64,000 nt of DNA, from positions 126,515,501 through 126,579,500 of the forward strand of contig CP142451.1 of the NCBI GenBank assembly GCA_038049695.1. Direction: 5' to 3'. Source of the stretch: Cinnamomum chago. Lineage: Eukaryota > Streptophyta > Magnoliopsida > Laurales > Lauraceae. Position 1 is the first letter of the stretch. Each line of letters starts with the position of its first letter. A program made the position numbers and the translations under genes. The notes beneath the pieces were generated by a model. The model made no database searches. It was not told the origin of the DNA and was given only the letters and a program-made list of their open reading frames with translations. Shown piece after piece: positions 18,405 to 62,984 of the stretch.

Positions 18405-20127
18405 TGTTAGGGATTTTGTATTTGCAATTTGATGGATGCATTAACATATTCACATCATTTGAATTTACACTCATGCATTGTTTTAGAAAATCTTGAAATC
18501 TGGTTTTATACATGCATTGCTTTTAAGATTTGTAAAAGTATTGTTTTATGCATGTTTTGTTTCTAAACTTGGATGCATTGGTTTTAGAATTCAAACTCTT
18601 TTGAAAACCTAATTCTTTGTGCATTATATTTGGAAAATCATTTTGAGAATTTAGGTTTGAACCTTGCATACATTCATCACTTTCAGAATCAGTTTTGTAT
18701 GTTTTTTTCATTTGAAAAGAGTTTTAGAAAATCAAGCTAGCCTATGAGTTTTAAATATTTCAAAATGTTTTAGACTTTTTATGTTCCATATTTTAAAACC
18801 CTTAAAATGATTTAAAACATGTTTTTAAGCTTGATTTATTGGCCCAAAAAGTTCCACAAAGAAAATCTTTGAAAGTTGCAAAACTGGAATTTGGGGCCTG
18901 GCAGTGTCGCCGGTCGACCGAGACCTGCTTCCCGGTCGACCGGGAACACTGTCGGTCGAGTGTGCAGGTTCTGAACTGAAACCTGCCAACGGTCAAAAAT
19001 ATGACCGTTGTGCCTTCCCGGTCGACCGAGACCTCTTTGCAGGTCGACCGAGGACTAGCCGTTGGGCACTTTTTGGCTATAAAGTCCATTCATTTCCAAC
19101 CCTTTTCAAGGCTTGACACATGAACTTTTGAGACCATTTTGGAGCCAAAGAAAGGGGAAGAAGTTGGAAAGGCTAGAGGGCTATTTGGAAATCAAATGCT
19201 TGAGTTTTAAAAAGGTAGATCTTTACTTGTATTTTGATTTCCATTCAAATGAAATCCATACATGCTTAAATCTTTGTTTTTCACTTATGCATGATTTCTA
19301 GAGAAGTTTAGCAAACTCATTATCATCTTTGGAATATTAAGAATGGTTTGCAAACTCTCTTGACTAATTCACATGTTCTTAGACTTTAATATTCATACAA
19401 CTTGTTTAGTTCATTTCTTCAAAGTTGTTTGAATCTTTTATATGATTAGTTTTATCTTCAATCATCATTTTATAAGCTTTGATTTTAAAATGCATCATGC
19501 ATTCATTTAGGAGCTTCATTGTAGAAATTGATTGAAGAAAAGCATTCATACACTTGTGCACACACTTTAACTTGTTTTAGTGTATGTTTGTAAGTTGAAT
19601 TAAACTTTCATATTAGCCTATGTAGAGGCAATTCAATTGTGCTTAAATTGTATCTCTTGGAGTGTTCTTTTGTGAAGACACCATCTTAGAGAAATCTTTA
19701 TTTGTAAAGGTTATTGCTTAGCCTAAGAAAAGCATTGTGTAAAGGTTATTGCTTAGCCTAAGAAAAACATCTTGTAAGGTTATTGCTTAGCCTATAAAAG
19801 CACATTGAGAGGTTGTTGTTTAGCCTAGAAAAACAACATTGTAAGGGTTATTGCTTAGCCTAGTAAAAAGCATACATAGTGGAAATCCGGTGGGGTGATT
19901 GGATCACAAGCCGGTAGTGGACGTAGGCATTGAGGCCGAACCACTATAAACATTGGTGTTGTGTTTGCTTGTGGTGATTTATTTATTAGCTTCCGCATTT
20001 TGTATGGTTAATCATCACATGTGACTAGTTGGTTTTAAAGAAGTTAAAATTTGTCTAAATTGGTCATAGTTGTAGCACACCCTATTCACCCCCCCTCCCT
20101 CTAGGGTTAGGATCCCAAGGACTTTCA
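18405..20127 (+). repeat. Copy A 5' LTR
   Basis: Starts TGTTAGGGATTTTG and ends CCCAAGGACTTTCA. It contains the palindrome cluster (18905-19060), a TATA-like CTATAAAG at about 19076-19083, and five units of a GGTTATTGCTTAGCC minisatellite at about 19705-19865. Confidence 0.93.
18905..19083 (+). promoter_or_regulatory. GGTCGACC palindrome cluster and TATA of copy A LTR
   Basis: CCGGTCGACCGA, CCCGGTCGACCGGG, a half-site GTCGGTCGAG, CCCGGTCGACCGAG and AGGTCGACCGAG follow each other over about 150 bases. An ACGGTCA...TGACCGT inverted pair sits between them. The cluster ends about 20 bases before CTATAAAG. Position suggests a U3 enhancer; binding by a protein is inference. Confidence 0.6.
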
Positions 20128-20142
20128 ATTGGTATCAGAGCC
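20128..20142 (+). promoter_or_regulatory. Primer-binding site, tRNA-Met type (copy A)
   Basis: TGGTATCAGAGCC lies two bases after the 5' LTR and matches the complement of the initiator tRNA-Met 3' end. Confidence 0.9.
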
Positions 20143-20228
20143 TCGTGCTCTATCTTATAGGATCAAGTGTTTGAAACTCTTGATTAGGTGTAAAAACCTA
20201 GAGTAAAAAACCCTAGAGTTGTGTTTAT

Positions 20229-21641
20229 ATGAAAATCATTAGAATGGACTCCACTATGCTAGACTTTGTAGATTCTTCTAGATCCCTCATTCTTCCATCT
20301 ATTGGAGATTCAAACCCTCAATCAAATGAATCTCAATGTGACATAAAAGAAGAAGAATTAATTGAAAATAAAGGAGATCTTCAACAAGCCTTTGAGGAAT
20401 TATATGAATTATCCTTAAAGACTGAAAAGAAAAACAAAAAGTTAGGAGAATAATCTAAAAGACTAAACAAAGAATTAGTCTATTCAAAAGATGAGCTTAG
20501 AAAGAAAGAAGAAGTCATAAATTGTTTAGAATCTAAGTTCATGATCTCCTTAAATAACCAATCTAACATTCAAGATGATCTAAGAGAATTAAAGATGGAT
20601 TATGATGATGTCAATAAGGAAAATTTAAAACTAAGAGATCAAATAAAAAGGCAAGATAAAGACTTTATCAATTTAGAAGCCAAGTTGATTAAAAGTAAGT
20701 TAAAAACCAAAGAACTTGGATCTAATGTTGTTAATGATCTAAAACTTGAATTAAAACTTGCCAATGAAGAGCTAAGCAAATATAAGGAAATTGAAAATGA
20801 ACTTTCAAAAGTAAAAAATGAAAATTCAATCCTTATAACCAAAGTCACTCAACTTGAAGGATATAAACAAAAGTATTAGTGCAAGTTTACCCAAAGTGAA
20901 GAAAGACTTGAAAAATTATTTAAATTGGGTAAACCTCATGGAGATAGGACGGGTATTGGATTTAATAGGAATATGTCATATGACCCTAAATTCACCAACA
21001 CTTTTGTGAAAGGTGAGTCCTCATTCTCTAGCACTCTTTCTCCCTTGCCCAAATCAAAATGTATTTATTGTGGCATTGAAGGGCATTTTAGGTTTGAGTG
21101 CAAACTAAGAAGAAGCCATGTGTCTAAACCCCTCCTTGAACCCAAAAATGTAGAATCTAAATCTATGAAGGGTAAGACACTAAAAATCAAAGAAGACTCC
21201 AAAAAGACTAAACAAGGTAAATCATTTAAAATGGAGTCTCCTAAGATAGATTCTAAGAAGTTTAGACAAGTTAAACCAAGCTTAAAAGAATCTATAAACA
21301 AAAAGCTTCTCAACCTCTCTCCCTTATATCAACCCATGAAAGAACTTTTGAATAAAGTAACAAAGATAAATCTAAAATTCAAAAGTCAAATAAAGGGAGA
21401 ATATAAGAAGAAAAGAAAAATGAACAAATCCCCTAAGAAACAAACTCACCAACATCAAAAGACTAATCACCAATCTAAGCTTAATTTAGTCAAATCTAAA
21501 TATCTTGGTGATAAGTTTAAATTGAAAATTTATCAAGTCAAATCTCCTTTAGTTGGTGAGAAGTCCAAACTAGACCTCAAAGTTCAACCCTCTCAAGACC
21601 TTAGGTGGATTCCAAAAGTTATTTACTTAGACAAACCTTAA
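20229..21641 (+). pseudogene. Copy A Gag-like ORF with two in-frame stops
   Basis: One frame runs through the region but is broken by TAA (20451-20453) and TAG (20877-20879). The copy B equivalents at these places are Glu codons. The N-terminal half is Lys/Glu/Asn-rich coiled coil. A CX2CX4HX4C knuckle (CIYCGIEGHFRFEC) comes before a Lys-rich tail ending DLRWIPKVIYLDKP. Order and motifs match the C-terminal part of SIRE-type Copia Gag, nucleocapsid included. No UBN2-type capsid domain is seen. It has one coiled-coil repeat fewer than copy B. Confidence 0.8.
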
Positions 21642-23984
21642 GGCCTTGAACCTCCTTGACCAACCTATTCTTTAATAGTTAAATATCTTTGTTGGTCATG
21701 TTGCATTTGCATTTTGCTTTTATATAGTTACATTCTTTAAAATGCATTGTTTCTTTATGATCAATTGATTTTGCTTTCATGCACCATTCCAAGTTACATG
21801 TCATGGTTTTCAAAAAACTTTTGATTATAATTTCAGCATGTTTGATTTGCTTTTTGCACACATAAGTTTTGCATTGCATTTCTACATGATTAATTGATTG
21901 TGATTTTAAAAGCTTTCATAGCTAATTTATTCATGATCAATTGTTGTTGCAAAATCATTTGTGTAGATGTCATAGTAATATTATTTGATCAAATGATTTG
22001 AATCAATTCAAGTTTTTCCATGGATTTCTAAGCTATACTTTTATATGGAAAATCATTGTTTTGAAAAATCAACTTGTATGTGTTTCTTTTAAGTTATATC
22101 TTTTAAAATACAATGTTGAAAATTGATCTTCAAAATCATTCTCTTTATGCTCATTGTTGGATTTTGTTTATCAAAATGATTTGAAGATTATTTGAAAGGA
22201 AATGCCTATAACATCATTAGTTATATTCATCTAAGCATGTTCCATGTTCTCATTTCCTTTTCTTTTGGTTTCATTATCTTAGAATTGGAGATGTATGTTG
22301 TTTGCATCTTTGCTTATTTAGTTATTCTTTTTATATGCAAATGACTATTGGTTCCATGTATGGTTGTGATCTTAGTAATATTTGTAGAAACCATACTAGA
22401 ACCCAAATCCATCCTCTATGCCTTATAGTCATTTCTATTTGGATGGTTATGATGTTGTTTCATGTATTTTCTCTAAGTGATATCATCCTTATACATGTTT
22501 CAACTTCATAATAGTGTTCTTGATCATATGAAACTCTTTGAAATCTATTCCTCATATTTCTATATGTTTGATGGATATCTTAGATGTTGAATTCATATGA
22601 TTTTGACACTTTGGAAATTGCATGCTTTACCAAGTTATATTCTTTTGCATTGCAATTTGCCTTGTTCATCACTATGCTCAATAGTCATATCTTTAAAAGT
22701 GATGAATATGCATTTATGATGCTTGATGGGATTTTGGGTTTGTCACATCCTTGCTTTTAATCATGTTGTCATATTCAATTGGTTTCATTTGGTATAACTT
22801 TCCATTGATTTCATATCCAATTGATATCTTATCTTGTGTATGTGATAGACCTTGTGTGCATTGGATTGAACTTGATAAGTAATATGATTGTTCCATGTCA
22901 CACACCATTAGCATCATAATGTTCATGTTTGCCACCTCTCTTGCTCTTATAGGTATATCTCATGACCACCATGTTTATGTGTTCATAATATTGGTTGGTT
23001 ATTAGTTGAGGTTGGCTTCATGCTTGAATTCATTTCACTCATCTTGCACTTTAATAGTCATATTTATTGATTGAATGAAATGATTTTCAAATCCTTCATA
23101 GCATATGATTTTCATAGTTATATTGATTGATGCTCTGTTTAGTAAACCCCATTTCATCATGGATAGCTCTAATTTGGATGTTTCCTAATAGTTATATTTT
23201 TAAATCCATTTTAGAGTGATTGTGTTTAATAGTCTTATCCTTAAATCTCAATTGGTATTCTTTGTTTTTCCAATTGATATCTATGATTGCTTTTCTCATT
23301 GACCTTGCTCTCTTTTGGCAATTTGATCATGTGAGCTTTATAGTTAAATGAATCTAATCATTTCCTTGAAGTTGACCCTCATTGGTAAAACCATCTTCTT
23401 CTTGCATCTAATAGTTAAATCTTTGTCAATATGTTGACAAAAGAAGAGTATGGATTGAGGGGGAGTGTAAACCTTCATAGGAAGTATTAGTTTTGATCAA
23501 ATTGACCCTTGGATTGACCCTTAGAGTCTAACTTCCATACATGATAGCCTGTTATGTACTTCATTTTCGATTTCATTTGTTAACAGGTGCTACTAAAGGT
23601 ATTTTCCTTATTTCATGTGTGTAGGTACCTTTGCAATTTAATGTCAAAGGGGGAGAGAGTTCAAGTACTCAAAGATCTCCTATTCTTCAAAGGGGGAGAG
23701 TGCCAAAGGGAGAGAGAGGCATGGTCAAAGGGGGAGAACAAATAGAAGGAAGAAAGCTTGGAGCTAAAGAAGATGCTTGGCCAAAGAGAGGAAGATGAAT
23801 AGAAAGCTTGAAAATTGATCAAGCACCAAGCATCAAGAAGATTGAAGAAAAGAGCCCAAGAGCCCTAGCTAAAAGGAGGAGCATCCAAGAAGATTTCTAG
23901 ACTTGTCCAGCTTAGGGGGAGCTGAAGACTTGTTGTGTTAATTCAATGATAAGTAAGTTGCCATCAAATTGCAAAGGGGGAGAT
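21642..23984 (+). other. Copy A non-coding 3' region with polypurine repeats
   Basis: AT-rich, with no pol motif in any frame. From about 23455 to 23984 the string AAGGGGGAG recurs several times; the last, CAAAGGGGGAGAT, directly precedes the 3' LTR and is the polypurine tract that primes plus-strand synthesis. Confidence 0.75.
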
Positions 23985-25867
23985 TGTTAGGGATTTTGTA
24001 TTTGCAATTTGATGGATGCATTAACATATTCACATCATTTGAATTTACACTCATGCATTGTTTTAGAAAATCTTGAAATCTGGTTTTATACATGCATTGC
24101 TTTTAAGATTTGTAAAAGTATTGTTTTATGCATGTTTTGTTTCTAAACTTGGATGCATTGGTTTTAGAATTCAAACTCTTTTGAAAACCTAATTCTTTGT
24201 GCATTATATTTGGAAAATCATTTTGAGAATTTAGGTTTGAACCTTGCATACATTCATCACTTTCAGAATCAGTTTTGTATGTTTTTTTCATTTGAAAAGA
24301 GTTTTAGAAAATCAAGCTAGCCTATGAGTTTTAAATATTTCAAAATGTTTTAGACTTTTTATGTTCCATATTTTAAAACCCTTAAAATGATTTAAAACAT
24401 GTTTTTAAGCTTGATTTATTGGCCCAAAAAGTTCCACAAAGAAAATCTTTGAAAATTGCAAAACTGGAATTTGGGGCCCTGGCAGTGTCGCCGGTCGACC
24501 GAGACCTGCTTCCCGGTCGACCGGGAACACTGTCGGTCGAGTGTGCAGGTTCTGAACTGAAACCTGCCAACGGTCAAAAATATGACCGTTGTGCCTTCCC
24601 GGTCGACCGAGACCTCTTTGCAGGTCGACCGAGGATTAGCCGTTGGGCACTTTTTGGCTATAAAGTCCATTCATTTCCAACCCTTTTCAAGGCTTGACAC
24701 ATGAACTTTTGAGACCATTTTGGAGCCAAAGAAAGGGGAAGAAGTTGGAAAGGCTAGAGGGCTATTTGGAAATCAAATGCTTGAGTTTTAAAAAGGTAGA
24801 TCTTTACTTGTATTTTGATTTCCATTCAAATGAAATCCATGCATGCTTAAATCTTTGTTTTTCACTTATGCATGATTTCTAGAGAAGTTTAGCAAACTCA
24901 TTATCATCTTTGGAATATTAAGAATGGTTTGCAAACTCTCTTGACTAATTCACATGTTCTTAGACTTTAATATTCATACAACTTGTTTAGTTCATTTCTT
25001 CAAAGTTGTTTGAATCTTTTATATGATTAGTTTTATCTTCAATCATCATTTTATAAGCTTTGATTTTAAAATGCATCATGCATTCATTTAGGAGCTTCAT
25101 TGTAGAAATTGATTGAAGAAAAGCATTCATACACTTGTGCACACACTTTAACTTGTTTTAGTGTATGTTTGTAAGTTGAATTAAACTTTCATATTAGCCT
25201 ATGTAGAGGCAATTCAATTGTGCTTAAATTGTATCTCTTGGAGTGTTCTTTTGTGAAGACACCATCTTAGAGAAATCTTTATTTGTAAAGGTTATTGCTT
25301 AGCCTAAGAAAAGCATTGTGTAAAGGTTATTGCTTAGCCTAAGAAAAACATCTTGTAAGGTTATTGCTTAGCCTATAAAAGCACATTGAGAGGTTGTTGT
25401 TTAGCCTAGAAAAACAACATTGTAACAATCTTAGAGAAATCTTTATTTGTAAAGGTTATTGCTTAGCCTAAGAAAAACATTGTGTAAAGGTTATTGCTTA
25501 GCCTAAGAAAAGCATCTTGTAAGGTTATTGCTTAGCCTATAAAAGCACATTGAGAGGTTGTTGTTTAGCCTAGAAAAACAACATTGTAAGGGTTATTGCT
25601 TAGCCTAGTAAAAAGCATACATAGTGGAAATCCGGTGGGGTGATTGGATCACAAGCCGGTAGTGGACGTAGGCATTGAGGCCGAACCACTATAAACCTTG
25701 GTGTTGTGTTTGCTTGTGGTGATTTATTTATTAGCTTCCGCATTTTGTATGGTTAATCATCACATGTGACTAGTTGGTTTTAAAGAAATTAAAATTTGTC
25801 TAAATTGGTCATAGTTGTAGCACACCCTATTCACCCCCCTCTAGGGTTAGGATCCCAAGGACTTTCA
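23985..25867 (+). repeat. Copy A 3' LTR
   Basis: Same ends as the 5' LTR but about 160 bases longer. A four-unit block of the GGTTATTGCTTAGCC minisatellite is duplicated (nine units, about 25285-25610, against five). Several substitutions separate the two LTRs. Confidence 0.93.
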
Positions 25868-44935: not shown

Positions 44936-47900
44936 GAAGAGAGATTGTTCGAGAGCATCTGATTCTGAATGGATTCTTGAAGGACTACAAGAACTGGATA
45001 AAACATGGAGAAGAGTATGTTTCCTGTCGCAGAGAGGAAATAGATGAAATTGAGGTGGATGATATGTCAGAGGCTGATCCGATGAACGTGATGTTAAATG
45101 ATATCGCGTGCGGGTTGGCACCCGAATACAGAAGCTGTGAGACTGAGGGGGCGGGTGGGAGTAATCCTCGCTCTGGTGCCGATGAAGAAGCCTTGAGATA
45201 TTTTGAAATTCTAGACGATGCACAGACAGAATTGTATCCTGGATGCAATGACTTCAGTAAATTGTCCTTTATTGTTGAGTTGTTACATTTGAAGGCATTG
45301 AACCTATGGTCTGACAAGTCTTTTGATATGCTCCTCCAGTTGTTGCATCGAGCGCTCCCATCCGGTGCAAAACTTGCTGAGTCCTACTATCAGGCTCGCA
45401 AGTTAACTGAAAATTTAGGTTTCACATATGAGACTTTGGATGCATGTCCGAACAATTGCATGTTGTTTAGGAATGAGAATGCCCATCTTGATAAGTGCAT
45501 TGTGTGTCAGACTTCGAGATGGAAGGAGGACGGGGTTGGTTACAATCGTCAGAATAGTTCTACAAGTGTTATCAACCATGGCAAACTTGTGGCAGTAAAG
45601 CAATTGAGATATTTCCCACTTAAGCCAAGGCTGAAGAGGCTTTTTATGTCATCAAATATTTCTAAACTGATGAGATGGCATGCCGAGAATAGCAGGGACG
45701 ATGGTAAGTTGGCCCATCCAGCAGATTCCCCAACATGGAAAGACTTCGATCGGAGGAATCCAGAATTTGCCTTGGATTGTCGCCATGTGCGGCTTGGTTT
45801 GGCTGCAGATGGTTTTAGTCCGTTCAGATCCATGACTGGGGCAAATCACAGTACGTGGCCAGTTGTTTTGGTACCTTATAATCTTCCGCCATGGATGTGT
45901 ATGAAGCAACCTTTTCTGATCATATCCACACTTATTGATGGACCAAGAGGACCAGGGGACAAGATTGATGTATATATGCAACCTCTGATAGATGAATTGA
46001 ATGAATTATGGGCTGATGGTCTGATGACATTTGATGCCGAAGGCAATGAAATGTTTAAACTCCGCGCCGCATTATTATAGACAATCAACGACTTCCCTGC
46101 GTACGCCAACTTGTCGGGTTGGAGCACAAAGGGAGAGTTTGCATGTCCTTGCTACAATAAGGAGAAGAAGTCAACTTGGTTGAAGCACGGCAGAAAATGG
46201 GCATACACGGGTCATAGGCGCTTTCTACCTCCATTGCATAGGTTCAGGAGGGACAAAGTGTCATTTGATGGGAGTCGAGAATATGGTCCAGCACCTCGAA
46301 CAATGACGGGAGTTGACTTGTTGTCACAGCTCGAGCAGGAGCAAATACGTACTGTGTATGATTTTCAAGATTTACTGGCCCCGGTGCTGCCTTCTATTCC
46401 CGGTGCAAGTAGAAGGCGAGGTCATAATTGGAAGAAAAAAAGTATTTTCTACGATTTACCATACTGGAAAGATAACTTACTCAGGCATAACTTAGATGTT
46501 ATGCACATCGAGAAGAAATTTTGTGATAATATACTATGGACCATTCTCGGTGCTCAGGGGAAGTCGAAGGATGGTGTCAATGCACGCTGTGACTTGGAAG
46601 AAATGGGCTTGAGAAAGCCGTTGCACTTGCAGTTGAGAGAGTCTAACAAGGCATACATGCCTCCTGCGCAGTACACGATGAGTAAAGATGAGAAAGATGT
46701 CTTCCTCTCAGTTTTGAAGGGTGTCAAGGTTCCTGACGGGTACTGTTCGAATATCGCAAAGCGTGTGAACATGAGAGAGAGAACATTACAGGGTTTGAAG
46801 AGTCATGACAATCATATTCTCATTCAACAATTACTGCCTATCTCCATACGGAATTGTTTGCCTAAGAATGTTGTAGCGCCGTTGATTGAAGTTAGTAACT
46901 TCTTCAGACAACTTTGTTCTAGAGTTCATCGAATTGATGAGTTGAATGGTTTGCAAGAGAGGATTGCTGTGACGTTGTGTCATTTAGAAAAAAAAATTCC
47001 ACCTGCATTTTTCGATGTCATGGTTCACTTGACCATACACTTAACCAATGAAGCCCTGCTTGGTGGCCCTGTCCAATTCAGATGGATGTATCCGATCGAG
47101 AGGTATATGAACACATTGAAGAGATATGTTCGCAATAGAGCTCGTCCGGAGGCATCGATAGCAAAGGGGTATCTGATGGATGAGTGCACAAATTTCTGCG
47201 CAGCATATCTTAAAGAGAATATTGAAACAAAGTTAACTAGGCCCTCGCGGATTAATGATGGTCCAGTTGGGGAGGGCACGCCATTTGATCTCAACAATAT
47301 TGAGTGGATTCAAGCTCACCGGTGGGTGTTGTTCAACACCCCATATGTTATGGCTTTCACTCAGTAAGTGATCACTCATTTATACGTGTAACTTGTCAGT
47401 TTTTTGCCTAAAACATCACACTTGTCGTTAACACGTATTATGCATCGCAGGACACACATTGATGAGCTGAAACGGGACATGCCTCATGCTACAGAGAATG
47501 AAATGCATCAGTCTCATTACCAGTCATTTCATGAATGGTTCAAGAATCACGTATGTACTCAATCATTAGGAGTAGTTTCACTTGTTCTTGTCATATTACT
47601 TTCATGTAGTGATATTCACTGATCACATGCATTGTGTAGGTATATAGCTTACGAAGAACCAACGATCCGTATTTGACTGATGAAATGAACCAGTTAGCTG
47701 ATGGCCCATTTATAACGGCCCGACGTTACACAACTTGTGATGTCAACGGCTTTCGATTTCGCATCAAGGATGTAGATGAGAAACGAGCGACGCAAAATAG
47801 TGGGCTCGGTTGTCCATCCGTCGATGCTGGTTACTATTATGGCCGGTTGAAAGATATTGTTGAAGTTGTGTATAATCACGGGCTAAAGTTTCTATTGTTT

Positions 47901-49282: not shown

Positions 49283-51213
49283 TGAAAGTCCTTGAGGATC
49301 CTAACCCTAGAGGGGGGGGTGAATAGGGTGAGCTACAACTAATGACTAATTATGACCAATTTTAATTTCTTAAACTAAACTAGTCACAAGTGGTGATTAT
49401 AAGAAAAAAATGCGGAAGCTCAAATAAACAATCACCACAAAAGCATGCACCACAACACAATATTTATAGTGGTTCGGCCAACGTGCCTACATCCACTACC
49501 GGCTTGTGTCTCCAACACCCCACCGGATTCCACTAAGTATGCTTTTTACTAGGCTAAGCAATAACCCTTACAATGTGCTTTTCTAGGCTAAGCAATAACC
49601 TTACAAGATGCTTTTCAAAGGCTAAGCAATAACCTTACAAGATGCTTTTCAAAGGCTAAGCAATAACCTTACAAGTTGCTTTTCTTAGGCTTAGCAATAA
49701 CCTTTACAAATATAGTTTTCTCAAAGAAAGTGTCTTAACAAAAGAACACTCTAAGAGATTACAATTTAAGCTCAATGGAATTGCCTCTTGAATAGGCTAA
49801 TATGAAAGTGAAAACTAAACTCACACAAACACTCTATGAATGCAAAGATGTATGCTTATGAGGTGTGTGTGTGTGATGGCTTCAATCAAGTTCAAAAAGA
49901 AAGCTTAATCAAATATATTGCTTAAAGCAATTCAAAGTTTAAAGCTCATAAAAGATTGATTGAAGTCTTATGCAAATCACATGTATGAAATTCAACTTGT
50001 TTATGATATGAAAATCAAGGACTAACAAGTTGTATGAAAATGGCTAATTTAGAACATGTGATGCATGTGCATGTTGTTTTCAAAACCAAATTAATTTTAC
50101 TAATGTTTAAATGAATGAAAACAACAAGCAATGTTTCAACCAAGTGATATAATCATGCAATACAAGAAATCCAAGATTTATGACTAAACATGATTAAGAA
50201 AGTTTAAAACAAAACTTGGTTTGAAAACAAAGTGATGAATCCAATTCTTGAATATCAAAGATGAAGGGAAGAATGGATTCAACACATCATTGTTATCATG
50301 CTTGAAATCAATTTCCAAAGTTTCAAACAAAGCACATAACAAATGATTAAATCAAAGTAAAACTTACTTGGAGATTTAACTTAGTTGATCCAAGCTTAAG
50401 CTTTACTTAATGACCCTTTAGCCTCTCTTAGTTCCTCCCCTTTGTCTTGTCTCAAAGCTCCTCAAAGAAGGCTTAAAAATCTCCAACCAAAGACAAAGGA
50501 AAGAGCTCATTTAAATACCAAAAACTGCCCAACGGCTAGTTTGGCCGGTTGACCGGCCATGACAGGCCGGTAGACCGGCCAAGCACAACGGTCATAAAAA
50601 TAGCCGTTGTGTTTTGGGTCATCCTGCACTATGGCCGGTTAACCGGGCTAACATGGCCGGTTAACCGGCTACACTGCGGGTTGACCACCCCGGTTAACCC
50701 CATGGTTAACCCCGCAGCACCAAAATTCCCAAAAAATGCATTTTTCACAGTTTTGCTTGGGGGAACTTTTTGGCCACTAAATCAAGCTTGGAAAACATGT
50801 TTTAAAGATTCTAAAGGTTTTTAAAACATGACATAAAAAGCCTAAAAAGTTTCAAAACTTTTAAAACAAAGGCTTGCTTGATTTCTTGAAAACTCTTTTC
50901 AAATGAAATTGCATACACAAATGATTCTTTTTGTGATGAATGTATGCAAAACTCAAACCTAAATTCACAAGATGATTTTCCAAATATAATGCACAAGGAA
51001 TTAGGTTTTCAAAAGAGTTTTGGGTTCTAAAACCAATGCATCCAAGTTTAGAACCAAAACATGCATATAACGCAAACTTTTCCAAATCTAAAAACCAATG
51101 CATGTATAAAACTAGATTTCAAGTTTATTTAAAAAACCAATGCAAGTGTGTAAATCACATGATGCTAGAATGATAATGCATCCATCAAATTGCAATCTAT
51201 AAAAACCCTAACA
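49283..51213 (-). repeat. Copy B 3' LTR
   Basis: On the minus strand it begins TGTTAGGGTTTTTATAG and ends GGACTTTCA. It holds five minisatellite units (about 49550-49705) and the GGTTAACC-type palindrome cluster at 50535-50715. Confidence 0.93.
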
Positions 51214-53623
51214 ATCTCCCCCTTTGCAATTTGATGGCAAACTCACTCACCACTGAGATTACACACTTAGTCTTCAGCTCCCCCTCAGTTGGACAAGACT
51301 TGAAATCTTCTTGGATGCTCCTTCTCATTAGCTTGAGCTCTTGGGCTCTTTTCTTCAATCTTCTTGATGCTTGGAGCTTGATCATTCTTCAAGCTTTCTT
51401 TCTTCTTCCTCTCTTTATGGCCAAGCATCTTCTTTAGCTCCAAGCTTTCTTTCTTCTATTTGCTCTCCCCCTTTGACCATGCTTCTTTCTCCTCTTGAGA
51501 ACTTGAAAGCTTTCTCCCCCTTTGATGGATAGGAGATCTTCGAGTACTTGAACTCTCGAACTCTCTCCCCCTTTGATGAGTGGGAGATCTTTGAGTCACA
51601 CTTGAACTCTCTCTCCCCCTTTGACATTAAATTGCAAAGGTACCTACACACATGAGACAAGAAGAATACCTTTAGTAGCACCTGTTAACAAATGGAATCG
51701 AAAATGAAATTCATAACAGGCTATCATGTATGGAAGTTATCTCTAAGGGCTCAAAGGCAATCCAAGGGTGAATTTGATCAAACTAATACTTCCTATGAAG
51801 GTTTACACTCCCCCTCAATCCATTCTCTTCTTTTGTCAAGCTTTTGACAAGATATAACTATTAGATTCAAGGAGTATATGGTTTATCTAAGTGAGGGTCA
51901 ACTTCAAGGAAAGGATTAGATTCATTTAACTATAAGGCTCATATGATCAAATTACCAAAAGAGAGCAAGGTCTAAAGAGAGAAACGATCATGGATACCAA
52001 TTGAAATAAACATATCAATTGAGATTAAAGGATGTGACAATAAACTCAATCACTCTAAAATGGATTTAAGAATATTACTATTAGGAAAAATCCAAATAAG
52101 AGCTATCCATGATGCAATGGGGTTTACTCAAACATAGCATCAATCAATATAACTTATGAAAATCATATGCTATGTAAGTTTTGAAATCATTTCATTCAAA
52201 CAATAAATATGACTATTAACGTGCATGAATGAGTGAAATGAAATTCAAGCATGAAGCCAACCTCAACTAATAACCAACCACTATTATGAACACATAAACA
52301 TGGTGGTCATGAGATATACCTATATGAGCAAAAGAGGTGGCAATCATGAGCATTGTGATGCTAATGGTGTGTGACATGGAACAATTATATAACTATCAAG
52401 TTCAATCCAATGTACACATGGTCTATCACATACACAAGATAAGATATCAATTGGATATGAAATCAATGGAAAGTTATACCAAATGAGACCAATTGAATAT
52501 GATAACATGAATAAAAGCAAGGATGTGACAAACTTCCATCAAGCATCATTAATGCATATTCATCACTTTTAAAGATTTAACTATTGAGCATAGTGATGAA
52601 TAAGAGAAATTGCAATGCAAAAAGATATGACTAGGTAAAGCATGCAATTCTCAAAGTGTCCAAATCATATGAATTCAACTACTAAGATATCCATCAACCA
52701 ACATAAATGTAAGGAATGGATTTCAAAGAGATTCATATGATCAAGAACACTACATATGAGGTTGAAACATGTACAAGGATGACACCAAGAGAATCTACAT
52801 GAATCAACATCATAACCATCCATAAAGAAATGACTATAAGGCAAAAAGGATGGATTTGGGTTCTAGTATGGTTTCTACAAATGTAACTAAGGTCACAACC
52901 ATACATGGAACCAATTGTCATTTGCATATGCAAGGAAAGTAAACAAACAAGCAAAGATGCAAACAACAAACATTTCCATTTCTAAAGATAATGAAACCAA
53001 AAGAAAAAGAAATGAAAACATGGAACATGCTCAAAAGATTATAACTAATGAAGTTATGGAGCATTTCCATTCAATCAATCTTCAAATCATTTTGATAAAT
53101 AAAATCCAACAATGAGCATAAAAGGAATGATTTTGAAGATCAATTTTCAACTTTGTATTTGAAAAGATATAACTTAGATGAGACACATACAAGTTGATAA
53201 TTCAAAACAATGAATTTCCATATAAGGGTATAACTTATAAATCCATGGAGAAACTTGAATTGAATCAAATCATTTGATTTACAAAAAGGATCTAACTAAG
53301 ACATACATCAAATGATTCAACAATTGATCATGAAGAGTCTAGCTATGAAAGCTTTTGAAATCACAATCAATTGATCATGTAAAGAAATGCAATGCAAGAC
53401 ATATGTGTGCAAAAGACAAATCAAACATGATGAAATTATAATCAAATGATTTTGAAAACCATGACATGTAACTTAGAATGGTGCATGAAACCAAAATCAA
53501 ATGATCATAAAGAAGCAATGCATTTTAAGAAATCTAACTAAAAGAAACAAAATGCAAATGCAATCATGACCAACAAAGTGATTTAACTAATAAAGAGTAG
53601 GTTGGTCAATGAGGTTCAAGACC
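51214..53623 (-). other. Copy B non-coding 3' region with polypurine repeats
   Basis: No pol-like frame. The polypurine tract (minus AAAGGGGGAGAT, 51214-51226) touches the LTR, and further AAAGGGGGAG copies lie at about 51463, 51510, 51565 and 51612. The rest is AT-rich and matches the corresponding region of copy A. Confidence 0.75.
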
Positions 53624-55198
53624 CTAAGGTTTGTCTAGGTAAATAACTTTAGGAATCCACCTAAGGTCTTGGGAGGGTTGAACTTTGAGATCTATCTTGG
53701 AATTCTCACCAACTAAAGGAGATTTAACTTGATAAATTTTCAATTTGAACTTATCACCATGATATTTAGATTTTACTAAATTTGGCTTAGAATGGTGATT
53801 AGTCTTTTGATGTTGGTGAGTTTGTTTCTTTGGGGATTGTTTCACTTTTCTTTTCTTCTTACTTTCTCCCTTTACTTGACTTTTGAATTTTAGATTTAAC
53901 TTAGCAACTTTCTTCAAAAGTTCTTTCATGGGTTCATATAAGGGAGATAAGTTGAGAAGCTTTTTGTTCTTAGATTCTTTCAAGCTTGGTTTAACTTGTT
54001 TAAGCTTTTTAGAATCTATCTTAGGAGACTCCATTTTAAATGATTTAACTTCTTTAGCCTTTTTGGAGTCTTCCTTGATTTTTAGTGTCTTACCCTTCAT
54101 AGATTTAGATTCTCCATTTTTGAGTTCAAAGTTGGGTTTAGACACATGGCTTCTTTTTCTTATTTTGCACTCAAATGTAAAATGCCCTTTAATGCCACAA
54201 TAATTACATTTGGACATGGGCAAAGAAGTGTGAGTGCTAGAGAAAGAGGACTCACCTTTCACAAAGGTGGTGGTGAATTTAGGGTCATGTGAAGTATACT
54301 TATTAAAACCAATACCCGTCCTATCTCCATGATGTTTACCCAATTTAAATAATTTTTCAAGTTTATCTTCACTTTGGGTAAACTTGCACTCATACTTTTG
54401 TTTATAGCTTTCAAGTTGAGTGACTTTGGTTATAAGGATTGAATTTTCATGTTTGACTTTTGAAAGTTCATTTTCAATTTCCTTATAATTGTTTAGCTCT
54501 TCATAGGCAAGTTTTAACTTAGAATTAAGCTCATTAACAACATTAGATCCAAGTTCTAAAGTTTTTGAATTACTTTGAGCATTAGACAAATTTTCATTTG
54601 AAATTGTCAACTTGGATTTTAAATAGTTAATGTTTTCATCTTGTCTTTTAATTGTATCTCTTAGGTTACAATTTTCCTTTTTAAGCTCATCACAATTTAT
54701 CTTAGTCTTATTTAATTCATCTTGAGCATTTGATAAATTTTCCTTAGAGATAGACAATTTAGATTCAAGATTGTTAAAGTCTTTATCTTGCCTTTTTATT
54801 TGATCTCTTAGAATTAAATTTTCCTTATTGACATTATCATAATCCATCTTTAATTCTCTTAGTTCATCTTGAATGTTAGATAGATTATTTAAAGAGATCA
54901 TGAACTTAGATTCTACACAATTTATAAATTCATCTTTTTCTCTAAGTTCATTTTTAGAAGAGTCTAATTCTTGGTTTAGCCTTATAGATTCTTCTTTTAA
55001 TCTTTTATTTTTCTTGGAAACCTCTAAGGACCATGTGTATAATTCCTCATAGGCTTCAAGTTCATCATATTCTTCTTCTTTTAATTCAAGATGAGATTCT
55101 TTAGTTTCAATGTTTGAATCTCCATAAGATGGAAGAATGAGGGGTCTAGAAGAATCTACTAAGTCTAGCATAGTGGAGTCCATTCTAATGATTTTCAA
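53624..55198 (-). CDS. Intact Gag-like protein of copy B (coiled coil plus zinc knuckle)
   Basis: An open frame of 524 residues, starting about 100 bases after the PBS; the start matches the copy A frame. Residues about 40-310 are Lys/Glu/Asn-rich with heptad-like Leu, a long coiled coil. It contains a ~49-residue unit repeated a little over twice (NLSNIQDEL / NLSNAQDEL / NLSNAQ). A CX2CX4HX4C knuckle (CNYCGIKGHFTFEC) lies at about 331-344, followed by a Lys/Ser-rich basic tail ending WIPKVIYLDKP. This matches the C-terminal part of SIRE-type Copia Gag (GIGF... then knuckle). No UBN2/capsid domain or protease is seen. It probably binds element RNA and joins particles built by a full-length relative; that is inference. 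Confidence 0.88.
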   Translation of the reverse strand: MKIIRMDSTMLDLVDSSRPLILPSYGDSNIETKESHLELKEEEYDELEAYEELYTWSLEVSKKNKRLKEESIRLNQELDSSKNELREKDEFINCVESKFMISLNNLSNIQDELRELKMDYDNVNKENLILRDQIKRQDKDFNNLESKLSISKENLSNAQDELNKTKINCDELKKENCNLRDTIKRQDENINYLKSKLTISNENLSNAQSNSKTLELGSNVVNELNSKLKLAYEELNNYKEIENELSKVKHENSILITKVTQLESYKQKYECKFTQSEDKLEKLFKLGKHHGDRTGIGFNKYTSHDPKFTTTFVKGESSFSSTHTSLPMSKCNYCGIKGHFTFECKIRKRSHVSKPNFELKNGESKSMKGKTLKIKEDSKKAKEVKSFKMESPKIDSKKLKQVKPSLKESKNKKLLNLSPLYEPMKELLKKVAKLNLKFKSQVKGESKKKRKVKQSPKKQTHQHQKTNHHSKPNLVKSKYHGDKFKLKIYQVKSPLVGENSKIDLKVQPSQDLRWIPKVIYLDKP

Positions 55199-55284
55199 GC
55201 AAGGACAACTCTAGGGTTTTAACTCTAGGTTTTTACACCTAATCAAGAGTTTCAACACTTGATCCTAAGGGATAGAGCACTTGG

Positions 55285-55297
55285 CTCTGATACCAAT
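55285..55297 (-). promoter_or_regulatory. Primer-binding site, tRNA-Met type (copy B)
   Basis: Minus-strand TGGTATCAGAGCC two bases from the 5' LTR. Confidence 0.88.
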
Positions 55298-57230
55298 TGA
55301 AAGTCCTTGAGGATCCTAACCCTAGAGGGGGGGGGGTGAATAGGGTGAGCTACAACTAATGACTAATTATGACCAATTTTAATTTCTTAAACTAAACTAG
55401 TCACAAGTGGTGATTATAAGAAAAAAATGCGGAAGCTCAAATAAACAATCACCACAAAAGCATGCACCACAACACAATATTTATAGTGGTTCGGCCAACG
55501 TGCCTACATCCACTACCGGCTTGTGTCTCCAACACCCCACCGGATTCCACTAAGTATGCTTTTTACTAGGCTAAGCAATAACCCTTACAATGTGCTTTTC
55601 TAGGCTAAGCAATAACCTTACAAGATGCTTTTCAAAGGCTAAGCAATAACCTTACAAGATGCTTTTCAAAGGCTAAGCAATAACCTTACAAGTTGCTTTT
55701 CTTAGGCTTAGTAATAACCTTTACAAATATAGTTTTCTCAAAGAAAGTGTCTTAACAAAAGAACACTCTAAGAGATTACAATTTAAGCTCAATGGAATTG
55801 CCTCTTGAATAGGCTAATATGAAAGTGAAAACTAAACTCACACAAACACTCTATGAATGCAAAGATGTATGCTTATGAGGTGTGTGTGTGTGATGGCTTC
55901 AATCAAGTTCAAAAAGAAAGCTTAATCAAATATATTGCTTAAAGCAATTCAAAGTTTAAAGCTCATAAAAGATTGATTGAAGTCTTATGCAAATCACATG
56001 TATGAAATTCAACTTGTTTATGATATGAAAATCAAGGACTAACAAGTTGTATGAAAATGGCTAATTTAGAACATGTGATGCATGTGCATGTTGTTTTCAA
56101 AACCAAATTAATTTTACTAATGTTTAAATGAATGAAAACAACAAGCAATGTTTCAACCAAGTGATATAATCATGCAATACAAGAAATCCAAGATTTATGA
56201 CTAAACATGATTAAGAAAGTTTAAAACAAAACTTGGTTTGAAAACAAAGTGATGAATCCAATTCTTGAATATCAAAGATGAAGGGAAGAATGGATTCAAC
56301 ACATCATTGTTATCATGCTTGAAATCAATTTCCAAAGTTTCAAACAAAGCACATAACAAATGATTAAATCAAAGTAAAACTTACTTGGAGATTTAACTTA
56401 GTTGATCCAAGCTTAAGCTTTACTTAATGACCCTTTAGCCTCTCTTAGTTCCTCCCCTTTGTCTTGTCTCAAAGCTCCTCAAAGAAGGCTTAAAAATCTC
56501 CAACCAAAGACAAAGGAAAGAGCTCATTTAAATACCAAAAACTGCCCAACGGCTAGTTTGGCCGGTTGACCGGCCATGACAGGCCGGTAGACCGGCCAAG
56601 CACAACGGTCATAAAAATAGCCGTTGTGTTTTGGGTCATCCTGCACTATGGCCGGTTAACCGGGCTAACATGGCCGGTTAACCGGCTACACTGCGGGTTG
56701 ACCACCCCGGTTAACCCCATGGTTAACCCCGCAGCACCAAAATTCCCAAAAAATGCATTTTTCACAGTTTTGCTTGGGGGAACTTTTTGGCCACTAAATC
56801 AAGCTTGGAAAACATGTTTTAAAGATTCTAAAGGTTTTTAAAACATGACATAAAAAGCCTAAAAAGTTTCAAAACTTTTAAAACAAAGGCTTGCTTGATT
56901 TCTTGAAAACTCTTTTCAAATGAAATTGCATACACAAATGATTCTTTTTGTGATGAATGTATGCAAAACTCAAACCTAAATTCACAAGATGATTTTCCAA
57001 ATATAATGCACAAGGAATTAGGTTTTCAAAAGAGTTTTGGGTTCTAAAACCAATGCATCCAAGTTTAGAACCAAAACATGCATATAACGCAAACTTTTCC
57101 AAATCTAAAAACCAATGCATGTATAAAACTAGATTTCAAGTTTATTTAAAAAACCAATGCAAGTGTGTAAATCACATGATGCTAGAATGATAATGCATCC
57201 ATCAAATTGCAATCTATAAAAACCCTAACA
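55298..57230 (-). repeat. Copy B 5' LTR
   Basis: Almost identical to the 3' LTR. The G tract near 55327 is 10 long against 8 near 49312, and one base in the TTAGC/TTAGT AATAACC minisatellite unit differs. Confidence 0.93.
56535..56730 (-). promoter_or_regulatory. GGTTAACC/GGTTGACC palindrome cluster and TATA of copy B LTR
   Basis: On the plus strand it reads GGCCGGTTGACCGGCC, GGCCGGTAGACCGGCC, GGCCGGTTAACCGGGC, GGCCGGTTAACCGGC, GGGTTGACC, CCGGTTAACCCC and GGTTAACCCC. They lie at the same LTR offset as the GGTCGACC cluster of copy A (about 505-670 from the LTR start). On the minus strand a TATTTAAAT box follows within about 30 bases (56526-56534). Confidence 0.6.
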
Positions 57231-58114: not shown

Positions 58115-61100
58115 GTAAAATTATTTTTTATAATTCAAGATTTCAACATTTAAGTTAAAAGCTTAACATAAAACTTAGAAAACGAGCCTCCGGGCGTCCA
58201 AAACGAGCAAACGGGCTCCGTTGCCGGTGAAACTTGACGGGCACGGGCCCCTAGTCATTCATGACTTGATGGAACTGACGGAACGAGAATCCGACTCCCG
58301 GATTGCTCGTAATGTTGAAAAGTAGGTTTAAGTTAGAACGTTAAGTTAAAACTTAGAGAACGAGCCTCCGGGCGCTCAAAACGAGCAAACGGGCTCCGTT
58401 GCCTGTAAAACTTGACGGGCACGTGCCCCTAATCATTCCTGACTTGCAGGAACTGACGGAACGAGAATTCGACTCCCGTATTGCTCGTAATGTTGAAAAG
58501 TAGATTTGAGTTAGAACGTTAACTTAAAACTTAGAAAACGAGCATCCGGACGCCCAAAATGAGCAAACAGGGTCTGTTGCTCGTGAAACTTGAGGGGCAC
58601 GGGCCCCTAGTGATTCTTGACTTGCAGGAACTGACGGAACGAGATTCCGACTCCCGGAATGATCGTACAGTTAAAACGTAGGTTTAAGTTAAAACTTAGA
58701 AAACGAGCCTCCGGGCGACCAAAATGAGCAAACGGTGTCTGTTGCTCGTGAAACTCGACGGGCACGGGCCCCTAGTCATTCGTGACTTGTAGGAACTGAC
58801 GGAACGAGATTCCAACTCCCGGAATGATCGTACAGTTAAAACGTAGGTTTAAGTTAAAACGTTAAGTTAAAACTTAGAAAACGAGCCTCCGGGCGACCAA
58901 AATGAGCAAACGGTGTCCGTTGCTCGTGAAACTCGACGGGCACGGGCCCCTAGTGATTCGTGACTTGTAGGAACTGACGGAACGAGATTCCGACTCCCGG
59001 AATAATCGTACAGTTAAAACGTAAGTTTAAGTTAAAACGTTAAGTTAAAACTTAGAAAACGAGCCTCCGGGCAACCAAAATGAGTAAACGGTGTCCGTTG
59101 CTAGTGAAACTCGACGGGCACGGGCCCCTAGTCATTCCTGACTTGCAGGAACTGACGGAATGAGATTCCGACTCCCGGTTTGATCGTACAGTTGAAAAGT
59201 AGGTTTGAGTTAGAACGTTAACTTAAAACTTAGAAAACGAGCATCGGACGCCCAAAATGAGCAAACGGGGTCTGTTGCTCGTGAAACTTGAGGGGCATGG
59301 GCCCTTAGTTATTCCTGACTTGCGGGAACTGACGGAACGAGATTCCGACTCCCGGAATGATCGTACAGTTAAAACGTAGGTTTAAGTTAAACCGCTAAGT
59401 TAAAACTTAGAAAACGAGCCTCCGGGTGACCAAAATGAGCAAACGGTGTCCGTTACTTGTGAAACTCGACGGGTACGGGCCCCTAGTCATTCGTGACTTG
59501 TAGGAACTGACGGAACGAGATTCCGACTCCCGGAATGATCGTACAGTTAAAACGTAGGTTTAAGATAAAACGTTAAGTTAAAACTTAGAAAACGAGCCTC
59601 CGGGCGACCAAAATGAGCAAACGGTGTCCGTTGCTCGTGAAACTTGACGGACACGGGCCCCTAGTCATTCCTGACTTACAGAAACTGACGGAACGAGATT
59701 CCGACTCCCGGTTTGATCGTACAGTTGAAAAGTAGGTTTGAGTTTGAACGTTAACTTAAAACTTAGAAAACGAGCATCCGGACGCCCAAAATGAGCAAAC
59801 GGTGTCTGTTGCTTGTGAAACTTGAGGGACACGGGCCCCTAGTTATTCCTGACTTGCGGGAACTGACGGAACGAGATTCCGACTCCCGGAATGATCGTAC
59901 AGTTAAAACGTAGGTTTAAGTTAAATCGTTAAGTTAAAACTTAGAAAACGAGCCTCCGGGCGACCAAAATGAGCAAATGGTGTCCGTTGATCGTGAAACT
60001 TGACGGGCACGTGCCCCTAGTCATTCGTGACTTGTACGAACTGACGGAACGAGATTCCGACTCCCGGAATGATCGTACAGTTAAAACGTAGGTTTAAGTT
60101 AAAACTTAGAAAACGAGCCTCTAGGCGACCAAAATGAGCAAACGGTGTCCGTTGCTCGTGAAACTCGATGGGCACAGGTCCCTAGTCATTCGTGACTTGT
60201 AGGAATTGACGGAACGAGACTCCAACTCCCGGAATGATCGTACAGTTAAAACGTAAGTTTAAGTTAAAACGTTAAGTTAAAACTTAGAAAACGAGCCTCC
60301 GGGCGACCAAAATGAGCAAACGGTGTCCGTTGCTCGTGCAATTCGACGGGCACGGGCCCCTAGTCATTCCTAACTTGCAGGAAATGACGGAACGAGATTC
60401 CGACTCCCGGTTTGATCGTACAGTTGAAAAGTAGGTTTGAGTTAGAACGTTAACTTAAAACTTAGAAAACGAGCATCCGGACGCCCAAAATGAGCAAACG
60501 GGGTCTGTTGCTCGTGAAACTTGAGGGGCACGGGCCCCTAGTTATTCCTGACTTGCGGAAACTGACGGAACGAGATTCCGACTCCCGAATGATCGTACAG
60601 TTAAAACGTAGGTTTAAGTTAAAACGTTAAGTTAAAACTTAGAAAACGACCCTCCGGGCGACTAAAATGAGCAAATGGTGTCCGTTGATCGTGAAACTTG
60701 ACGGGCACGGGCCCCTAGTGATTCGTGACCTTTAGGAACTGACGGAACGAGATTCCGACTCCCGGAATGAACGTACAGTTAAAACGTAGGTTTAAGTTAA
60801 AACGTTAAGTTAAAACTTAGAAAACGAGCCTCCGGGCGACCAAAATGAGCAAACGGTGTCCGTGGCTCGTGAAACTCGACGGGCACGGGCCCCTAGTGAT
60901 TCGTGACTTGTAGGAACTGACGGAACGAGATTCCGACTCCCGGAATAATCGTACAGTTAAAACGTAAGTTTAAGTTAAAACGTTAAGTTAAAACTTAGAA
61001 AACGAGCCTCCGGGCGACCAAAATGCGCAAACGGTGTCCGTTGCTCGTGAAACTCGTCGGGCACGGGTCCCTAGTCATTCCTGACTTGCAGGAACTGACG

Positions 61101-62984
61101 GAACGAGATTCCGACTCCCGGTTTGATCGTACAGTTGAAAAGTAGGTTTGAGTTAGAACGTTAACTTAAAACTTAGAAAACGAGCATCCGGACGCCCAAA
61201 ATGAGCAAACGGGGTCTGTTGCTCGTGAAACTTGAGGGGCACGGGCCCCTAGTTATTCCTGATTTGTAGGAATTGACGGAACGAGATTCCGACTCCCGGA
61301 ATGATCGTACAGTTAAAACGTAGGTTTAAGTTAAAACGTTAAGTTAAAACTTAGAAAACGAGCCTCCGGGCGACCAAAATGAGCAAATGGTGTCCGTTGA
61401 TCGTGAAACTTGACGGGCACGGGTCCTAGTCATTCGTGACTTGTAGGAACTGACGGAACGAGATTCCGACTCCCGGAATGATCGTACAGTTAAAACGTAG
61501 GTTTAAGTTAAAACTTAGAAAACGAGCCTCTAGGCGACCAAAATGAGCAAACGGTGTCCGTTGCTCGTGAAACTCGACGAGTACAGGTCCGTAGTCATTC
61601 GTGACTTATAGGAACTGACGGAACGAGATTCCGACTCCCGGAATGATCGTACAGTTAAAATGTAGGTTTAAGTTAAAACGTTAAGTTAAAACTTAGAAAA
61701 CGAGCTTTCGGGCGACCAAAATGAGCAAACGGTATCCGTTGCTCGTGAAACTCGACGGGCACGGGCCCCTAGTCATTCCTGACTTGCAGGAACTGACGGA
61801 ACGAGATTCCAACTCCCGGTTTGATCGTACAGTTGAAAAGTAGGTTTGAGTTAGAACGTTAACTTAAAACTTAGAAAACGAGCATCCGGACGCCCAAAAT
61901 GAGCAAACGGGGTCTGTTGCTCGTGAAACTTGAGGGGCACGGGCCCTTAGTTATTCCTGACTTGCGGGAACTGACGAAACGAGATTCCGACTCCCGGAAT
62001 GATCGTACAATTAAAACGTAGGTCTAAGTTAAAACGTTAAGTTAAAACTTAGAAAACGAGCCTCCGGGCGACCAAAATGAGCAAATGGTGTCCGTTGATC
62101 GTGAAACTTGACGGGCACGGGCCCCTAGTCATTCGTGACTTGTACGAACTGACGGAACGAGATTCCGACTCCCAGAATGATCGTATAGTTAAAACGTAAA
62201 CGTTAAGTTAAAACTTAGAAAACGAGCCTCCGGCCGACCAAAATGAGCAAACGGTGTCCGTTGCTCATGAAACTCGACGGGCACGGGCCCCTAGTCATTC
62301 GTGACTTGTAGGAACTGACGGAACGAGATTCCGACTCCCAGAATGATCGTACAGTAAAAACGTAGGTTTAAGTTAAAACTTAGAAAACGAGCTTTCGGGC
62401 GACCAAAATGAGCAAACGGTATCCGTTGCTCGTGAAACTCGACGGGCACGGGCCCCTAGTCATTCCTGACTTGCAGGAACTGACGGAACGAGATTCCGAC
62501 TCCCGGTTTGATCGTACAGTTGAAAAGTAGGTTTGAGTTAGAACGTTAACTTAAAACTTAGAAAACGAGCATCCGGGCGCCCAAAATGAGCAAACGGGGT
62601 CCGTTGCTCGTGAAACTTGAGGGGCACGGGCCCTTATCCATTCAAGACTTGCGGGAACTGACGGAACGAGATTCCGACTCCCAGTTTGATCGTACAGTTG
62701 AAACGTAGGTTTGAGTTAGAACGTAAACTTAAAACTTAGAAAACGAGCATCCGGGCGACCAAACTGAGCAAACGGTGTTCGTTGCTCTTGAAACTTAACG
62801 GGCACGAGCCCTTAGTCATTCGTGACTTACAGGAACTGACGGAACGAGATTCCGACTTCAGGATTGATGTTAATGTTGAAACGTAAGTTAAAATTTTAAT
62901 TTTAATTCTTAATTTTTTATATTTAGTATAAATTGCCAATTTTTATACTTATCTTTTAATATTTATTTTTCTTTTTCTGTTCAG
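58115..62984 (+). other. Giant last intron of the TnpA-like gene
   Basis: Donor GTAAAA at 58115, acceptor TTCTGTTCAG at 62975-62984. Phase is kept, but the following exon adds only GTT before TGA. Almost the whole intron is the satellite array. Confidence 0.65.
58172..62880 (+). repeat. Satellite array, about 27 units of ~175 bp
   Basis: The landmark CGAGC(C/A)TCCGG recurs about 27 times, e.g. 58182, 58360, 58539, 58706, 58881 and on to 62746, at 165-180 bp spacing. Each unit also carries GACGGAACGAGATTCCGACT and GGGCACGGGCCCC. Two subtypes alternate: CCTCCGGGCGACC and CATCCGGACGCCC. The second occurs near 58539, 59237, 59772, 60470, 61180, 61879 and 62567, giving a higher-order period of about 700 bp (four units). 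It is CpG-rich and non-coding. Confidence 0.95.

Follow-up and report, generated by a model that had tools for sequence, protein, structure and literature searches.

Long terminal repeat (LTR) retrotransposons of the TR-GAG type, which are said to go back to Chaparro 2015, and several other nonautonomous elements form the background to a family that we describe here from Cinnamomum chago. The DNA analyzed, called the window throughout, is a stretch of 64,000 bases (C1:126515501-126579500) from a genome that totals 1.06 Gb over 14 contigs. It carries two LTR retrotransposons, copy A (18405-25867, plus strand) and copy B (49283-57230, minus strand), each with one open reading frame (ORF) region. 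Both belong to a large nonautonomous family whose ORF is predicted to encode the post-capsid half of Gag, comprising a long coiled coil followed by a CCHC knuckle and a tail rich in basic residues, and is apparently under natural selection.

In the parts of the cited papers that we draw on, nonautonomous LTR elements are described as having no protein, a Gag domain or gag gene, single parts of pol, or other short proteins. Like A and B, TR-GAG elements have two LTRs, one Gag-type ORF and no pol, and a Copia member from Arabidopsis with a 562-amino-acid GAG is reported to transpose (PMC8704663, PMC6022998, PMC9784723). In those parts, however, the TR-GAG descriptions name a GAG domain or GAG protein, and no recognized Gag domain was found in A or B; the two copies have the LTRs and the pol-free internal region but not the ORF with a recognized GAG domain, and we do not file them as TR-GAG. 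The rule for LARD elements is a length of at least 2 kb and no coding domain (PMC6022998); no domain of the ORF passes the Pfam cutoff, yet the ORF is under coding constraint.

RLC_Giselle of barley is likewise a Copia element that has a gag gene but no reverse transcriptase or integrase genes; it is thought to depend on the autonomous RLC_Inga, and its conservation with that partner is highest at the primer site (PMC5738225). An element named Inga appears in the Sirevirus table of PMC2829016. Unlike A and B, RLC_Giselle is described with a potentially intact gag gene (PMC5738225). RLG_Sabrina and BARE2 are also abundant nonautonomous families that coevolve with autonomous partners; however, Sabrina is a Gypsy element, in some short variants of which other short proteins replace Gag-Pro, and BARE2 has a disrupted gag with its other genes intact (PMC9744471). 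Finally, Ty1 p22 resembles the short ORF in being a C-terminal part of a Ty1/copia Gag, and it acts on full Gag in trans; it differs in being an inhibitory internal product of a full element that, by coordinates, overlaps UBN2 (PMC4599808).

An earlier note on this DNA had set the family against described gag-only elements that keep a whole Gag. As far as the descriptions used here go, those elements do keep GAG, but a gag-bearing nonautonomous Copia element had already been described in RLC_Giselle. No description of a selected Gag without a capsid domain was found in the open-access literature searched. Gag-bearing nonautonomous Copia and Gypsy elements are known; the selected Gag without a capsid domain looks like a new variation on these.

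The short Gag ORF

The ORF of B, on the minus strand, has 519 codons from its ATG and 528 from stop to stop, and not the 524 codons given in the earlier note. Its protein aligns with residues 355 to 467 of the Gag of a full-length relative, locus L069 (a 603-residue open stretch in the same genome), at 34.5% identity, and by profile it matches residues 474 to 550 at 37%, including a GxGF motif and the second CCHC knuckle. Altogether, the ORF covers approximately residues 355 to 550 of the 603, that is, the coiled coil and the second knuckle; the UBN2 capsid half and the first knuckle are absent. The previous description of the ORF as the coiled-coil and nucleocapsid part of a Copia Gag holds in that only the post-capsid half aligns credibly, but the nucleocapsid part is reduced to the knuckle behind the coil.

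The B protein also has the motif GDRTGIGF and a lysine-rich tail. An AlphaFold model from the single sequence placed helices at residues 36-203, 212-264, 272-281 and 416-437, with disorder and low confidence elsewhere (mean pLDDT, 57.4). The CCHC knuckle is complete in all 17 aligned open copies, and K and R make up 29 to 34% of the sequence behind it, although 7 of the 17 tails are partial owing to the locus border.

In the profile search for UBN2 that had been proposed, the B ORF gave no match to Retrotran_gag_2/UBN2 up to an expect value (E) of 1; the same Retrotran_gag_2 model scored 6.6e-31 on the open frame of a relative, L060. Pfam and NCBIfam returned nothing from the ORF beyond coiled-coil matches and knuckle matches below the Pfam curated cutoff. 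Nothing was found among PDB sequences or PDB folds, and the empty fold search says little because of the low mean pLDDT of the model. A hidden capsid domain was dropped as a candidate on these results. The family could still be an ordinary TR-GAG with a capsid domain that has diverged beyond recognition. TR-GAG elements have been described from several plants (PMC8704663, PMC6022998, PMC9784723), and the ORF does match the capsid half of the L069 Gag weakly, in low-complexity sequence (E, 0.007 to 0.11 pairwise). We do not credit these matches. By profile, the stretch for the capsid half reaches -8.7 bits, and both profile and pairwise comparisons support the post-capsid half only; moreover, the ORF starts approximately 115 bases behind the LTR end, which leaves no room for a capsid upstream. 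This explanation is the least probable of those considered here.

Family size and selection on the ORF

Across the genome, a 27-base stretch of the leader is matched exactly at 2,944 places, array units included, and the pattern of the LTR/primer-site junction at 3,108 (0 for either control). A search with the ORF gave 83 scored places out of 8,311 first-look candidates, which together with the leader count rules out a chance resemblance; 66 of the 83 have no internal stop, a proportion that is biased because these are the best matches. We took the first 30 loci with the junction pattern, all on contig C1, irrespective of the ORF. The short ORF lies right behind the leader in 22 of them, whereas 4 carry a Gag of full type (identified by Pfam in L060 and by eye in L050, L059, and L067) and 4 are other elements (L040, L041, L043, and L056).

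Eleven of the 22 short ORFs are open as far as they are covered: three reach their own stop at 459 to 465 codons, and eight run to the locus end at 466. In L045 and L064, the adjoining stretch carries the ORF on to its usual end. L047 and L048 are one small array, and L065 and L066 are one duplicated place, a single locus in which the primer site, the leader and the first ~100 ORF codons are repeated at a spacing of 659 bases.

Our main set for measuring selection consisted of the ten open copies of this sample, compared over 373 columns away from gaps; we excluded the 11 loci not open as far as they are covered, as well as L048, which pairs with L047 in an array. The pooled pairwise ratio of nonsynonymous to synonymous substitution rates (dN/dS), which requires no tree, was 0.52 at a kappa of 1.25 (bootstrap, 0.41-0.63) and 0.61 at a kappa of 2 (0.48-0.78), and shifted-frame controls at a kappa of 2 gave 1.20 and 1.56. 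A codon model gave an omega of 0.50 and a kappa of 1.74, with a log-likelihood of -4426.3 versus -4453.2 at an omega of 1 (26.9 units, best of four fixed kappa values), a tree-based figure that is approximate because the copies recombine, as the linkage decay reported below indicates. The ratio on the ORF, which the earlier note had wanted computed, is thus not near 1 in these copies (0.50-0.61), nor are all other copies broken. By region, at a kappa of 2, it was 0.46 in the knuckle block, 0.45 in the basic tail, and 0.58 and 0.64 in the coil.

The ten copies replaced a set of 17 because, besides B, that set included four members picked up through the likeness of their protein to that of B and two through matching downstream DNA. 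The codon-model test on the 17 copies gave -5557.7 versus -5594.1, with a kappa estimate of 1.25; variants shared among copies were more synonymous (omega-like value, 0.60) than singletons (0.80), and codons 151-290 of the unfiltered set had a dN/dS of 0.93.

These data bear on the possibility that the ORF is a passenger, a gag fossil whose functionless protein is carried along by good cis signals. Such a passenger would fit the 11 of 22 sampled copies that are not open and a constraint that is moderate and kappa dependent. We consider it very unlikely, since dN/dS lies below 1 whereas the shifted-frame controls exceed it and since openness exceeds the neutral expectation: in a neutral simulation that counted stops alone, a copy stayed open with a probability of 0.02 at 6% substitutions of its own, and with the indel rates of the filler behind the ORF, the probability was 0.0195 at 2% and less above. 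Gap runs that are not a multiple of 3 make up 1 of 11 in the aligned ORFs versus 40 of 45 in the filler, a contrast that is weak because the ORF set was picked open.

Structure of the two copies

The features of B and A are as follows (window coordinates).

55298..57230, minus strand: 5' LTR of B, 99.85% identical to 49283-51213, with TG...CA ends and the duplication GTCGA.
49283..51213, minus strand: 3' LTR of B, from the LTR pair comparison and its ends.
55283..55297, minus strand: Sirevirus-type junction and tRNA-Met primer site ATTGGTATCAGAGCC of B, as defined in the part of PMC2829016 used here.
55184..55297, minus strand: leader of B from LTR to ORF, primer site included, with the 27-base family-typical stretch inside.
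53624..55183, minus strand: ORF of B, 519 codons, with predicted helices, GDRTGIGF, one CCHC and a lysine-rich tail.
51678..53623, minus strand: noncoding filler of B behind the ORF, 88.5% identical to A, with no match in the pol loci compared.
51214..51815, minus strand: polypurine octamer region of B, in which AGGGGGAG occurs seven times and begins for the last time 10 bases ahead of the 3' LTR.
49539..49709 and 55556-55726, minus strand: ~34-base tandem repeats in the LTRs of B; the full-length relative has a related stretch in its LTR.
18405..20127, plus strand: 5' LTR of A, from the LTR comparison and its ends.
20244..21641, plus strand: ORF region of A, interrupted, with a 222-codon open stretch at 20973-21641.
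23985..25867, plus strand: 3' LTR of A, with an internal 164-base duplication and AGTAA.

The two copies have common LTRs, a primer site, a polypurine tract and one ORF, as had been reported. The 1.93-kb LTRs of B flank 4,084 internal bases and, in agreement with the earlier note, are nearly identical, with 1 mismatch and 1 gap opening over 1,933 columns. Those of A (1.72 and 1.88 kb) flank 3,857 internal bases and are 97.8% and 99.7% identical in two segments, the 3' LTR holding the duplication listed above. The duplications AGTAA at A and GTCGA at B are 5-base target duplications. Inward from the 5' LTR, the order is CA, ATTGG and TATCAGAGC, the leader amounting to ~115 bases in all before the ORF; ATTGGTATCAGAGCC is the primer site in both copies, and AAAGGGGGAGAT stands immediately ahead of TG. 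Behind the ORF follow ~1.9 kb of filler, the AGGGGGAG octamer region, AT/TG and the 3' LTR. The LTR tandem repeats seen here are AT rich. The frame of A is broken by a stop after 69 codons, and the alignment contains two in-frame stops.

Several hallmarks of Sireviruses, as defined in the part of PMC2829016 used here, are present. The junction CA/ATTGG followed by TATCAGAGC occurs in A and B and, by construction of the pattern, in the 30 sampled loci. The octamers number seven in B and six in A; in both copies, the final one sits at -10 from the 3' LTR, with AT/TG. Close to its 3' end, the LTR carries the polyC-rich integrase signal, which reads CACCCTATTCACCCCCCC in A, B, and L069; by a crude string test, CACCCC is found in 18 of the 22 short-ORF loci. 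These noncoding ends suggest that A and B are of the Sirevirus type (Ty1/Copia), the elements themselves having no reverse transcriptase for placement in a clade.

Absence of pol and the full-length relative

In tblastx and blastn comparisons (E, 0.01), the 1,946 bases behind the B ORF gave no match to L069 or to 30 RVT_2 loci of ~3.7 kb, and a pol remnant in the filler was dropped as a candidate. Three fragments of the full-length relative's pol, which do match their own source, gave no match (E, 0.001) in the A or B region or in 5-kb downstream stretches of four further loci, where the 3' LTR is present in two and missing from the other two. Pol is thus absent from four copies covered to the 3' LTR (A, B, L055, and L064) and from two partial stretches; this agrees with the statement that A and B have no pol, and pol in most copies, which would have refuted the earlier reading, is not seen among the copies examined. 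Array units, spaced 5.5 to 6.0 kb apart, are too short to hold it.

In L069, gag is followed by stretches of protease (PR), integrase (INT), reverse transcriptase (RT) and RNase H (RH) in several frames, named by eye, and the Gag proteins of L059 and L069 look alike by eye. A search with the L069 Gag gave 73 scored places out of 11,661 candidates, 36 of which show a 1,609-codon open frame that is free of stops over the match, and several of these lie in arrays; from its length alone, we take this frame as a putative gag-pol. Compared with A and B, two 5' ends from the 1,609-codon group are ~76% identical in the last ~90 LTR bases, with LTR islands of 75 to 92% and a 43-base leader block of 81 to 86%. 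L069 itself is 79% identical to A and B in the polypurine region and 100% in the last 27 to 29 bases before the 3' LTR, and it has the same polyC signal. Over 80 bases, LTR ends of the L050/L059/L060/L067 type are 60 to 74% identical to that of B and those of the other four loci without the short ORF are 46 to 54% identical, which is only a tendency, because short-ORF copies span 53% (L068) to 94% (L057). Exact patterns number 2,944 for the parasite and 153 for the full-length element, from which we claim no copy ratio because L074 and L075, which belong to the 1,609-codon group, escape the full-length pattern. The full-length partner with matching LTR ends that had been anticipated is therefore represented by a relative with open frames, but its LTR likeness is confined to patches.

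Given such a partner, the chief competing explanation is an interfering Gag, in which the fragment coassembles with the partner's Gag and restrains it in the manner of Ty1 p22; selection could then act by limiting damage or competition or, indirectly, by favoring the family's own RNA. The fragment is indeed a C-terminal part of Gag with coding constraint. However, p22 is a product of the very element that encodes the full Gag and overlaps UBN2 (PMC4599808, in the part used here), which was not found in the ORF, and the presumed partner, with many open-frame copies of near-equal scores, is not evidently restrained. We judge interference improbable. Rather unlikely, too, is a role elsewhere, in RNA export, stability, translation or chaperoning, with packaging left to the cis signals. 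The knuckle and basic tail would suit general RNA binding, and the cis ends are common to the relative in patches; such a role does not call for a long coiled coil, though, and the coil columns are below 1 (0.58 and 0.64, but 0.93 in the 17-copy set).

Recombination and age

Four copies, L070 to L073, are near-identical to B over 701 bases behind the ORF but diverge farther upstream, where the difference reaches up to 29% in 100-base bins. The switch points of these mosaics differ in place, and the ORF is open in two of the four. Among the ten copies, r2 was 0.32 below 50 bases, 0.09 at 300 to 600 bases and 0.11 above 600 bases, and none of 2,000 permutations gave a correlation of r2 with distance as low. 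Template switching between copackaged RNAs would simply explain both the mosaics and the linkage decay, which are to be expected if different RNAs share particles.

Recent mobility, claimed earlier for the family, is borne out by young LTR pairs, with 1 mismatch in 1,933 columns in B, 0 in 1,505 in L064 and 3 in 1,506 in L055. A commonly used substitution rate is 1.3e-8 per site and year, at which the insertion of B would be about 20,000 years old.

Arrays and neighboring features

Units of one LTR and one internal part of the gag-only family also form head-to-tail arrays with a spacing of 5.4 to 6.0 kb, at C1:117785482-117820002 (7 units), C2:37229068-37283561 (10), C4:41064311-41100983 (7) and C11:25429591-25472454 (8). 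Similar arrays of RVT_2 (Copia RT) matches lie at C5:21564560-21636143 (14) and C7:25056752-25101037 (9). Long arrays have been described for Cassandra (in the part of PMC7215508 used here), and the present ones may reflect assembly error.

Of the loci with other elements, L041 and L040 are nearly identical at the LTR end; L040 has a Copia-like Gag by eye, but L041 has an internal frame that matches PF20167 Transposase_32 (8.3e-23) and is apparently another nonautonomous derivative with a foreign ORF. Elsewhere in the window are a CACTA-type tnp2 transposase frame (45064-46080; PF02992, 2.9e-56) ~3 kb from B, LINE-like frames on the minus strand (4508-7933; RVT_1, 3.6e-08; DUF4283, 1.8e-29) and a tandem satellite of ~178-base units (58149-62895) that starts 0.9 kb beyond B.

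Discussion

We lean toward the view that the family is a nonautonomous, Sirevirus-type parasite that is moved in trans, keeps cis signals and the post-capsid part of Gag, and uses the latter to help package its own RNA. The cis signals of its relatives would have been kept, and pol and the capsid-coding half of gag would have gone. The full-length relative, or a closer one, would supply the capsid, integrase and reverse transcriptase; the short Gag would bind the element's RNA through its knuckle and tail and join the relative's particles through its coiled coil, aiding the packaging of that RNA. An RNA that rides in a partner's particles would fit the intact state of the relative and the ends it has in common with the family. 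A stronger version, in which the Gag tail has evolved into a dedicated RNA-packaging adaptor that tags its own RNA and docks via the coiled coil in the particles of another element, is a possibility that we put forward only tentatively.

Several observations weigh against the parasite view, which is drawn from sequence. The coding constraint is moderate and kappa dependent: in the 17-copy set, dN/dS over all columns was 0.53, 0.69, 0.79 and 0.86 at kappas of 1, 2, 3 and 4 (bootstrap at a kappa of 3, 0.66-0.97), the pairs B-L072 and B-L073 gave 1.19 and 0.90, and recombination blunts the likelihood figure. In the ten copies, the first 30 usable codons had a dN/dS of 2.5, which may reflect relaxed constraint, diversification or small numbers; these columns lie within codons 1-45 of B (window 55049-55183), and the rest of the ORF is below 1. 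With stops alone, the neutral simulation left a copy open with a probability of 0.25 at 2% substitutions. The mosaics could instead be products of crossing over within arrays or of gene conversion. Similarity to the relative's LTR comes in pieces of ~67 to 92%, so that a closer partner may exist, and the relative's Gag has no long lysine-rich tail and is 27 to 37% identical in the common blocks. The leader was also considered as a stable packaging hairpin, a candidate that was rejected, its folding being no better than that of shuffles (z, -0.33 to -1.14).

Under the domain rule in the part of PMC6022998 used here, an element of this kind would presumably be filed as domain-less, so that its coding capacity would easily be missed. 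A dedicated adaptor, if true, would separate the selection of RNA from the building of particles. A constrained Gag without a capsid, in a family whose leader occurs in thousands of copies, together with a relative whose frames are open, would provide a natural experiment on which parts of Gag choose RNA and which build the particle.

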